DNA of 64,000 nt, taken from assembly GCA_018969015.1 (NCBI GenBank), contig JAGWZE010000001.1, positions 62,001 to 126,000 on the forward strand, in the 5' to 3' direction. The stretch comes from Alphaproteobacteria bacterium. Its GTDB lineage: Bacteria > Pseudomonadota > Alphaproteobacteria > Caulobacterales > Aquidulcibacteraceae. Position 1 is the first letter of the stretch, and every line of letters starts with the position of its first letter. Position numbers and translations under genes: made by a program. The notes beneath the pieces were generated by a model, which was not told the origin of the DNA, did not search any database, and saw only the letters and a list, made by a program, of their open reading frames with translations. Shown here in pieces: positions 4,989 to 58,795 of the stretch.

Positions 4989-5639
4989 CTAGGCTGGAGC
5001 AAGCCGGTGCGCCAGGATCAGCGCCGCAGCGGCCAGCAACAGCAGACCGACCACCGCCATGAAGCCGCGCCGGAACCGGGCGTTCTCCATCTGCGCGCTG
5101 AGGGCGCCGCCCGCGAGCCCGTAGGACGACATCGAGACCACGTCCATCGCGATGGTCGTCGCCGCGAACACAGCGAGCTGCGCCGGCAACGGGCGGGCGG
5201 GATCGAGGAACGGCGGCAGCACGGCCGTGAAGAACAGCACCGCTTTCGGGTTCGCGATCTGCACGGCGAAGCCGTCGCGGAACGCCTGCCCCGGCTTGGC
5301 GGCCGCGACGGCCTTCAGGCCATCGTCGCCGCCGATCGCCGCGCGCAGCGCCGAGACGCCGAGCCACGCGACATAGAGACCGCCGGCGATCGCGATCCAG
5401 CGGAACTGCTCGGGAAACGCCGCGACGAGCGCGCCAAGGCCGAGCGAGGCGGCGGCGAACCAGACCATCGTGGCGAGGTTCATGCCGGCGACGCCCGCCA
5501 GCGCCGCGCGTGCGCCGCGTTGCAGCCCCGTCGCGACCGAGAACAGGTTGGCTGGCCCCGGCGTCCAGGCGAGCAGTATCATCGCGCCCAGGAACAGGAC
5601 GTAAGTGTGCGGATCGACGGGAAAGGACGTGGGCGTCAC
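4989..5639 (-). CDS. LysE-family amino-acid exporter
   Basis: A 216-residue inner-membrane protein with about six hydrophobic segments and the LysE/RhtB start (FLGAMILLAWTPGPANLFSV), where the TPGPAN motif is the family hallmark. Length is normal. Members export amino acids or related small molecules; the substrate is not predictable. It starts 36 bases after the hydrolase at 5676-6545 on the same strand and might be read on from the mpl-like/hydrolase genes. Confidence 0.9.
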   Translation of the reverse strand: MTPTSFPVDPHTYVLFLGAMILLAWTPGPANLFSVATGLQRGARAALAGVAGMNLATMVWFAAASLGLGALVAAFPEQFRWIAIAGGLYVAWLGVSALRAAIGGDDGLKAVAAAKPGQAFRDGFAVQIANPKAVLFFTAVLPPFLDPARPLPAQLAVFAATTIAMDVVSMSSYGLAGGALSAQMENARFRRGFMAVVGLLLLAAAALILAHRLAPA

Positions 5640-5675: not shown

Positions 5676-6545
5676 CTACAGGAAGGCCGCCAGCGCCGCG
5701 AGCGTTTCCTCAGGCTTTTCCTCCGCGACGAAATGGCCGCACGCCACCTTGGCGAAGGTGAGATCACGCGCCTGCCCGGCCCATGTCGCCGGCACGTCGA
5801 AAATCGCGCCGGTGGATTGCGAGGTTTCACCCCACAGAACGAGCGTCGGCGCCGAGATCGGATGATCGGCGTCCGCCGCGTCGTGCTCGAGATCGACGCC
5901 GGCGCCGGCGCGGTAATCGGCGCACATCGCGTGGAACGCGTCGGCGCCGCCATTGGTCTTCACCATGGCCTCGATCGCGGCGGGATCATCGCCCGCCATG
6001 CGGCACGCGAGACGCACATAGACGCCCGCCTGCGGCCCCATCAAAAGCTCGGGCCCCGGCGCCGGCAGCGTGAGGAAGAACCAGTGCCAGAGATTGCGCG
6101 CGGCCTCGCGCGTGACGTTGCCGTAGATGTGCGCCGTGGGGACGATATCTAGGATCGCGAGCTTCTCGATCGCATCCGGATGATCCTTCGCGAGGCGGCG
6201 CGACACGCGCGCGCCGCGGTCGTGGCCGACGAGACGGAATCGCTTGAACCCGAGCGCGCGCATCAGCCCGACCTGATCCGCGGCCATGCGGCGTTTCGAA
6301 TAGTCCAGCGGCGACGTTGCGGCGGGCTTGTCGCTCCAGCCATAGCCGCGCAGGTCAGCGCAAACGACGGTGAAGCGCTCGGCGAGCTTCGGCGCGATCT
6401 TGCGCCACATGACGCAGTTCTGCGGGGCGCCGTGCAGCATCAAAAGCGGCGGCCCCGCGCCGCCGATCACGGCATGGATGCCGACGCCGTCGACCGTGAC
6501 GCGTTCGGCGCGGAACCCGGGAAAGAACGCCAGTGCCTCGCTCAT
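5676..6545 (-). CDS. Alpha/beta hydrolase resembling fluoroacetate dehalogenase
   Basis: A 289-residue cytoplasmic alpha/beta hydrolase. Numbered from MSEALAFF, all residues known to matter in fluoroacetate dehalogenase can be placed: nucleophile Asp109 with Arg110 and Arg113 (GHDRGAR), Asp133 (LAILDIVPT), the halide pocket His154, Trp155 and Tyr211 (LWHWFF, ADYRAG) and the base His271 (CGHFV). The spacing is within a few residues of the Rhodopseudomonas enzyme. Such enzymes hydrolyse haloacetates to glycolate; related family members act on other haloacids or epoxides, so the substrate is inferred. GGAGG ahead of ATG 6545 decides the start over one seven codons upstream that would overlap the Mur ligase gene. 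Confidence 0.85.
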   Translation of the reverse strand: MSEALAFFPGFRAERVTVDGVGIHAVIGGAGPPLLMLHGAPQNCVMWRKIAPKLAERFTVVCADLRGYGWSDKPAATSPLDYSKRRMAADQVGLMRALGFKRFRLVGHDRGARVSRRLAKDHPDAIEKLAILDIVPTAHIYGNVTREAARNLWHWFFLTLPAPGPELLMGPQAGVYVRLACRMAGDDPAAIEAMVKTNGGADAFHAMCADYRAGAGVDLEHDAADADHPISAPTLVLWGETSQSTGAIFDVPATWAGQARDLTFAKVACGHFVAEEKPEETLAALAAFL

Positions 6546-6546
6546 C

Positions 6547-7944
6547 TCAGCCTCCGAACTTTGCATCGAGCAGCGCGGGCGCGGTGTCGGCGAGCCCGTC
6601 CAGCGGCCCGGACGACAACAGCAGAACCACCTCGTCGCCCTTGAGCTGCGCCAGCGCCTCGAGCACCGCGGCGCCGTTGGCCATCGGCGCGACGTCCACG
6701 CCCGCCGCCTGCACGCAGCCCACGATCTCGCCCTGGCTCAACTGCGCGTGGCTCCCCGCCCCATGCGTCGGCGGCGGCATCAGCAGCACGCGCGCAACGC
6801 CTTCGAACACCGTGGCGTACCAGTCGCGCGCCTGGGCGTTCCGCCAGGAGAACGTGTGCGGCTCGAACACGACGACGAGCGGCCGCGATGGGAAATGCAG
6901 CTGCACGGCCTCGATGGCGGAGCGCGCCTTCTCATAGGACGATCCGAACCCCTCATAGGCGGGCACGCGCGATGTTGCCGTCTTCTTGTCGAGCCGCCGG
7001 GCGACGCCGCGAAACGCCGGCAGCGCGGCCTGAAGATCCGCCGGCGTGACGAGCCCACGCGCGAGCAGCAGCGCCGCCGCGCCGACGATGTTCTCGACAT
7101 TGTGCAGCCCGAGCAGCTGCGTCGCGAGCGGGATACGCGCGCCATCGGGCGTGACGAGCGTGAAGTGCGTGGTTTCGCCGATCGCGATGTCGACGCCGCT
7201 ATAGCCCTCGCCTTCGCCGAGCCCGTACCACGTGATGCGCCGGCTGGCCGCGAGGCGCAGGATCGGTTCGTATTGGCGCGCGCAGACGAGGAGGCCATCG
7301 GCGGGCGTGAGCGCGATCAGCTCCGCGAACGGCGCTTCGTAGCTCTCCATCGTCGGGAACATGTTGAAGTGGTCGTGCACGATCGAGGAGATCAGCGTGT
7401 GCGCGGGGTGATAGAGTACGAACTTGGAGCGCCGATCCTCGGGCGAGATCACGTACTCGTCCCCTTCCAGGATCATCTGCGCGTCGCCGCCCCAATGGCC
7501 CGTCGTCGGCAGATCAAGCGGCACCGCACCGATGAAGTAGCCGGGATCGCGGCCGGCCGCGCGCAAGAGATAAGCGATCAGCGCGGTGAGCGAGGATTTG
7601 CCGAACGAGCCGGCGACGACGATGTTCTCACGGCCCTGCGTATGCGCGGCGAGAAACTCCGGAAACGTCACGCAGCGCACGCCGCGGCGGCGCAGCTCCG
7701 CCGCCTCGGGATTTTCCGCGCCGCCGAGCTTGGCGCTCGCGCCGATCACCGCGACGTCGACATCCGCGGGAATGTTCGGCGCATCGAAGCGCGTGGCGTA
7801 GCGCACGCCGAGGCGATCGAGATACGTCGACACCGGCGGAAACACGCCCTCGTCCGAGCCGCTGACGCGCCAGCCCTGCGATACGAGGATCGACGCGAGC
7901 GCGGAAACGCCCGCGCCGGCGATGCCGAGGAAATAGACGTGCAC
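6547..7944 (-). CDS. mpl: Mpl-like Mur ligase (muropeptide recycling)
   Basis: A 465-residue Mur ligase with the N-terminal Rossmann domain (MHVYFLGIAGAGVSALA), ATP-binding central domain and C-terminal domain. Mpl re-attaches the L-Ala-D-Glu-mDAP tripeptide to UDP-MurNAc during wall recycling. The Mpl-like signatures are EGDEY...RRSKFVLY and HNVENIVGAAA. The P-loop is unusual: GSFGKSS at residues 112-118 instead of the canonical GTHGKTT. No other mur genes are nearby. The downstream hydrolase begins right after its stop codon, so the two are probably co-transcribed. A related ligase with another substrate is possible. Confidence 0.8.
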   Translation of the reverse strand: MHVYFLGIAGAGVSALASILVSQGWRVSGSDEGVFPPVSTYLDRLGVRYATRFDAPNIPADVDVAVIGASAKLGGAENPEAAELRRRGVRCVTFPEFLAAHTQGRENIVVAGSFGKSSLTALIAYLLRAAGRDPGYFIGAVPLDLPTTGHWGGDAQMILEGDEYVISPEDRRSKFVLYHPAHTLISSIVHDHFNMFPTMESYEAPFAELIALTPADGLLVCARQYEPILRLAASRRITWYGLGEGEGYSGVDIAIGETTHFTLVTPDGARIPLATQLLGLHNVENIVGAAALLLARGLVTPADLQAALPAFRGVARRLDKKTATSRVPAYEGFGSSYEKARSAIEAVQLHFPSRPLVVVFEPHTFSWRNAQARDWYATVFEGVARVLLMPPPTHGAGSHAQLSQGEIVGCVQAAGVDVAPMANGAAVLEALAQLKGDEVVLLLSSGPLDGLADTAPALLDAKFGG

Positions 7945-58710: not shown

Positions 58711-58795
58711 GCCCAGATGGCGGAATTGGTAGACGCACCAGTTTCAGGTACTGGCGCCGCGAGGCGTGGAGGTTCGAGTCCTCTTCTGGGCACCA
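58711..58795 (+). tRNA. tRNA-Leu (anticodon CAG)
   Basis: An 85-base tRNA with a long variable arm. The 7-bp acceptor stem is GCCCAGA/TCTGGGC, the anticodon stem CCAGT/ACTGG holds the loop TTCAGGT with anticodon CAG (reads CUG), and the T-arm has GGTTCGAGTCC. CCA is encoded. The 3' end is followed within 200 bases by a P4-type integrase gene in the same direction, the usual layout for an island inserted at a tRNA. Confidence 0.97.

Follow-up and report, generated by a model that had tools for sequence, protein, structure and literature searches.

The gene considered here, P0001, lies between a Mur-ligase-family gene and a LysE-family exporter gene in the window, by which we mean the whole 64,000-nucleotide stretch of DNA that was analysed. 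The features discussed are listed below, with residues in P0001 numbering and, in brackets, in that of RPA1163 from Rhodopseudomonas palustris.

6547..7944, minus strand: Mur-ligase-family gene (Mpl/MurC-like), upstream of P0001, from profile matches
5676..6545, minus strand: P0001, fluoroacetate-dehalogenase-family alpha/beta hydrolase of 289 aa, from the ORF, Pfam, the solved fluoroacetate dehalogenases (FAcDs) and an AlphaFold2 model
6426..6428, minus strand: codon for A40 in the HG-x-P motif (F40), from the aligned column
6207..6221, minus strand: codons 109-113 (DRGAR), with the nucleophile D109 and, by homology, the carboxylate-binding R110 and R113, from the alignment
6147..6149, minus strand: codon D133, second Asp of the triad (D134), from the alignment
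6081..6086, minus strand: codons H154-W155, halide pocket (H155-W156), from the alignment
5916..6080, minus strand: shortened segment of the cap, between W155 and Y211, lacking the gate Trp, from the alignment
5913..5915, minus strand: codon Y211, halide pocket (Y219), from the alignment
5733..5735, minus strand: codon H271, catalytic His (H280), from the alignment
4989..5639, minus strand: LysE-family exporter gene, downstream of P0001, from Pfam and the gene order in relatives

The P0001 reading frame runs from an ATG at 6545 to a TAG stop at 5678-5676. GGAGG lies immediately 5' of this ATG, and the stop codon of the Mur-ligase-family gene ends one base before it; a second candidate ATG, at 6566, would create an overlap with the upstream gene. 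A decayed or non-expressed copy might be suspected from the patchy occurrence of the gene, as P0001-like matches at E<=1e-30 were found in two of 41 close relatives (the host genome itself and G016), but we give this idea almost no credence: the reading frame and the catalytic residues are intact, a ribosome-binding site and a start placed one base past the upstream stop are present, and GC3 (0.855) is just slightly lower than in the neighbouring genes (0.88-0.94).

P0001 matches the Pfam families Abhydrolase_1 (1.8e-31) and Abhydrolase_6 and no others, and no NCBIfam model matches it at cut-off, so that automatic annotation would describe it as an alpha/beta hydrolase. In a phmmer search of the PDB the best match is Alr0039 (3qyj; 2.6e-75), followed by 9c9f, FA1 (1y37) and RPA1163 (3r3u; 6.4e-70), and identity to the solved FAcDs is 44-49% over the full length. 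Homology of this extent rules out a chance pattern of eight residues. Judged by these comparisons P0001 is a FAcD-type hydrolase, the whole protein falling in that family. Related enzymes of other activity, i.e., an epoxide hydrolase or a plain esterase that resembles the dehalogenases, share the fold, the NCBIfam matches are generic and far below their cut-offs, and several close PDB relatives (4b9a and others) carry the title "putative epoxide hydrolase". We nevertheless regard such an identity as quite improbable, because the FAcD-named chains and Alr0039 score 231-257 bits (239-257 for 3r3u, 1y37, 9c9f and 3qyj), compared with 112 bits for 7ac0, which scores highest among the soluble epoxide hydrolases from outside the family. 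The entries with the "putative epoxide hydrolase" title themselves score as family members (192-195 bits), three of the titles naming bound MFA, and the P0001 nucleophile is Asp rather than Ser.

All eight FAcD active-site residues that the preliminary description placed in this gene are present (D109, R110, R113, D133, H154, W155, Y211 and H271), and this octad aligns column for column with 3qyj, 9c9f, 1y37 and 3r3u. D109, H271 and D133 make up the Asp-His-Asp triad, with Asp as the nucleophile; H154, W155 and Y211 are by alignment the His-Trp-Tyr residues of the halide pocket; and R110 and R113 align with R111 and R114 of RPA1163. The two arginines are presumably the carboxylate binders. The octad is absent from all six of the host genome's other hydrolases that were aligned, which were drawn from 19 further matches. 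For characterized members of the family, the available portion of PMC11022551 describes what the triad and the His-Trp-Tyr pocket do, and gives the pocket Trp as required for C-F, but not for C-Cl, cleavage.

We consider it probable that P0001 is, in its main chemistry, an alpha-halocarboxylate hydrolase that uses the known two-step mechanism. With the carboxylate held by R110 and R113, D109 would attack the alpha carbon, and the halide would depart into the pocket of H154, W155 and Y211. The D109 ester would then be opened by a water molecule activated by H271 and D133, which would yield the alpha-hydroxy acid and the halide ion. From the homology, the residue positions and the fold we infer this chemistry, together with measurable activity on chloroacetate and fluoroacetate, and defluorination by P0001 in vitro seems likely.

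The AlphaFold2 monomer model, based on an input alignment of 77 rows chosen from fetched sequences, has a mean pLDDT of 96.7 and a pTM of 0.94; its lowest-confidence block (residues 181-190, mean 85) falls within the altered cap segment. Superposition with VIA-align gives Z 45.0 for 3qyj (1.2 Å over 282 residues), 44.6 for 4nvr (titled as a putative acyltransferase), 44.3 for 9c9f and 44.1 for Daro3835 (8sdc). Modelling against the Rhodopseudomonas enzyme, as had been proposed, gives Z 43.8 and 1.4 Å for the best RPA1163 entry, while FA1 superposes with Z 43.7 and 1.3 Å. Overall, Z values to FAcD structures are 42-45, and Alr0039, the D4B enzyme, Daro3835, FA1 and RPA1163 are all fitted at 1.2-1.4 Å. 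The predicted fold, which shares its helical cap with RPA1163 and FA1, can be regarded as settled.

Homologues of P0001 at E<=1e-40 occur in at least 104 of 385 sampled genomes of the class, a lower bound since at most six candidates per genome were scored, and 116 of the 131 class homologues (all matches other than P0001) have the full octad. In the remaining 15, Trp replaces the pocket His in six, the pocket reads Y-F-F in three, and two are truncated matches that were scored as not having the full octad; two more read D-W-L-D-H-Y-Y-H, with both arginines and the pocket Trp changed, and two have a single change. The six with Trp for the pocket His (L091, L101, L121, L122, L130 and L146) form a clade that reads D-R-R-D-W-W-Y-H and has Gln at the gate. 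Two other homologues, L135 (G378:C37) and L213 (G411:C1), have one stop codon within the matched stretch and are possibly decaying copies or assembly errors. The genome sets overlap partly (L020 and L191 are identical). On alignment evidence the octad is the normal state of this family, which is common in the class and patchy in the host's order. The preliminary description had seen a complete active site in an ordinary hydrolase gene; this characterization does not hold, and since the octad comes with the family, most of the surprise is removed. A P0001-like gene is rare in the order, in which it was found in 6 of 398 genomes (E<=1e-60), and not in the class. Because about a quarter of the sampled class genomes have a homologue, most of these homologues with the full octad, an intact FAcD active site is by itself only a weak sign that organofluorines are metabolized.

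Two trees were built, one with FastTree from 181 of 197 aligned rows, the other 16 having been set aside as distant or partial, and one with IQ-TREE from 78 chosen rows. They agree that P0001 pairs with L009 (100/100), that this pair is sister to three Y-F-F proteins (99/85), and that all five group with FA1 and two class proteins (99/86), with the IQ-TREE bootstrap not having converged. As FA1 is proven to defluorinate, the position of P0001 beside it supports the view that P0001 has kept its activity. The three Y-F-F proteins (L108, L138 and L152, from G068, G372 and G415) have these residues in place of H-W-Y and HGDP at the HG-x-P motif, and keep both arginines and the triad. They represent a natural pocket swap, likely with a new substrate, so that function appears to have shifted close to P0001.

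The octad of P0001 is set in an altered second shell. At the HG-x-P position, P0001 and L009 have Ala, which occurs in none of the 150 other octad proteins (Tyr in 106, Phe in 23, Asn in 12, His in five, Trp in two, Leu in one and a gap in one). The gate Trp (W185 in RPA1163, W180 in FAcD-H1) is a common but non-defining trait of the family: the gate column has Trp in 120 of these 150, and P0001 lacks it. The residue opposite W185 is Met or Ala depending on the alignment, but the absence of any Trp from the P0001 cap segment is independent of the alignment and is shared by 18 of the 152 octad proteins, with P0001 and 9c9f among them. At the position of RPA1163 K181, P0001 has Ala. The spacing of the eight residues, earlier described as nearly the published one, agrees up to Trp155 and then departs from it, the short cap placing Tyr211 56 residues beyond Trp155, compared with 61-63 in four solved references. 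L009 has 55 residues here and 103 of the 152 octad proteins have 61, which makes the P0001 segment five residues shorter than usual.

The same features separate P0001 from its solved relatives, all of which have the full octad. Alr0039/NOS0089 (3qyj, Nostoc sp. PCC 7120) is the closest by sequence (48.7% identity over 277 aligned residues) and, according to the available text of a review (PMC11022551), defluorinates fluoroacetate and difluoroacetate; it differs in having Tyr at HG-x-P, the gate Trp and a 61-residue Trp-to-Tyr segment. FAc-DEX FA1 (1y37, Burkholderia sp. FA1; 44.3%), the tested enzyme nearest to P0001 in the tree, has Phe at HG-x-P, the gate Trp and a 62-residue segment. RPA1163 (3r3u; 44.5%) has F40, K181 and W185 where P0001 has Ala, Ala and no Trp. 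The D4B enzyme (9c9f, Delftia acidovorans D4B; 45.6%) also lacks the gate Trp, having Arg there, but has His at HG-x-P and a cap segment of normal length. This entry is presumably DeHa4, an FAcD of strain D4B, which is an active reference enzyme in the accessible part of PMC12184663, with a Km lower than that of the gut enzyme P3 by a factor of about ten. The nearest relative is L009/L090, from a genome of the host's family (G016), which at 66.8% identity shares with P0001 the octad, Ala40, the missing gate Trp and the short cap.

The published findings on the gate are mixed. When FAcD-H1 was put through growth selections on 2-fluoropropionate, the gate residue Trp180 was kept almost exclusively, and the authors called it critical, whereas in RPA1163 smaller residues at the gate position favoured bulky substrates (both from the part of PMC12955510 at hand). 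W185 and W156 of RPA1163 sit in the substrate pocket, as stated in an excerpt of PMC11465415. The title of PDB entry 9ue2 describes the RPA1163 variant K181S/W185G/H280A together with a bulky 2-fluoro-3-aryl acid, and because of this K181S/W185G pair the lineage of P0001 and L009 partly resembles the engineered enzyme.

The surroundings of the P0001 pocket look unusually open, and Ala40, the missing gate Trp and the shortened cap make its real substrate uncertain. Given this changed second shell, we expect P0001 to be a looser and probably less efficient enzyme on fluoroacetate, with larger 2-halo acids relatively better accepted. Little difluoroacetate activity would be expected, as higher activity on that substrate has been tied to a smaller active site (Khusnutdinova et al., as cited in the available text of PMC12184663). 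More tentatively, P0001 and L009 may form a natural wide-pocket branch of the FAcDs that takes bulky 2-fluoro and 2-chloro acids. The C-F machinery would here be intact, while loss of the walls formed by F40 and W185 and shortening of the cap would give room for bulky acids, and the pocketless Y-F-F group would have moved further still toward a substrate without halogen.

The same observations are open to another interpretation, namely that the machinery was inherited and that the cellular job concerns some other alpha-substituted carboxylate, or a carboxylate-bearing ester or lactone, with dehalogenation minor or lost. This would fit the features common to P0001 and L009 (Ala40, a shorter cap and no gate Trp), the retention of both arginines in the Y-F-F sister group, and the absence of fluoride or fluoroacetate genes next to P0001; the abundance of the family in the class would also be hard to square with fluoroacetate as its usual substrate. 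Although it has some substance, we think this the less probable course, as P0001 and L009 both keep all three halide-pocket residues at 67% identity, and drift would be expected to lose W155 early. What remains of interest in P0001 is its altered second shell, along with a sister group that lacks the halide pocket. Should the open pocket prove functional, enzymes of the P0001 branch would offer a natural point of departure for the defluorination of larger alpha-fluoro acids. Together with the Y-F-F group, the branch would also offer a system for finding the residues that enable C-F cleavage.

The neighbourhood gives no pointer to fluoroacetate as the natural substrate of P0001, in keeping with the earlier remark that the gene context is silent on halogenated substrates. 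The upstream Mur-ligase-family gene, present in 8 of 31 genomes searched (the host's own counted), scores under the curated cut-offs both for Mpl (151.8 of 388.7 bits) and for MurC (183.9 of 335.1), the latter being higher. In three relatives (L224, L226 and L227) a LysE-family gene directly follows the Mur-ligase gene with no hydrolase between them, the two being separated by approximately 110 bases in L224 and overlapping by one base in L226 and L227. The P0001 gene, which separates this small conserved pair in the host, is thus an extra one in the cluster, either gained in the host or lost in the three relatives. Its homologue L009 in G016 is located elsewhere, adjoining an acyltransferase-like gene (read from the ORF) rather than a Mur-ligase gene. 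An assignment of P0001 function from gene context was rejected on these grounds.

In the fluoroacetate-growth cluster of Caballeronia S22, the dehalogenase is surrounded by CrcB, a fluoroacetyl-CoA thioesterase and an aconitate methyltransferase (PMC11812338, available portion). None of these three neighbours was found at the P0001 locus. The host genome has one CrcB match, on another contig, and a glycolate oxidase (glcD) match that is under its cut-off. A search for fluoride riboswitches gave no match in the host genome, and matches in 4 of 14 control genomes. We consider it unlikely that fluoroacetate is the physiological substrate of P0001. The sole Rfam match within the 64-kb window is a tRNA at 58711-58792 on the plus strand.
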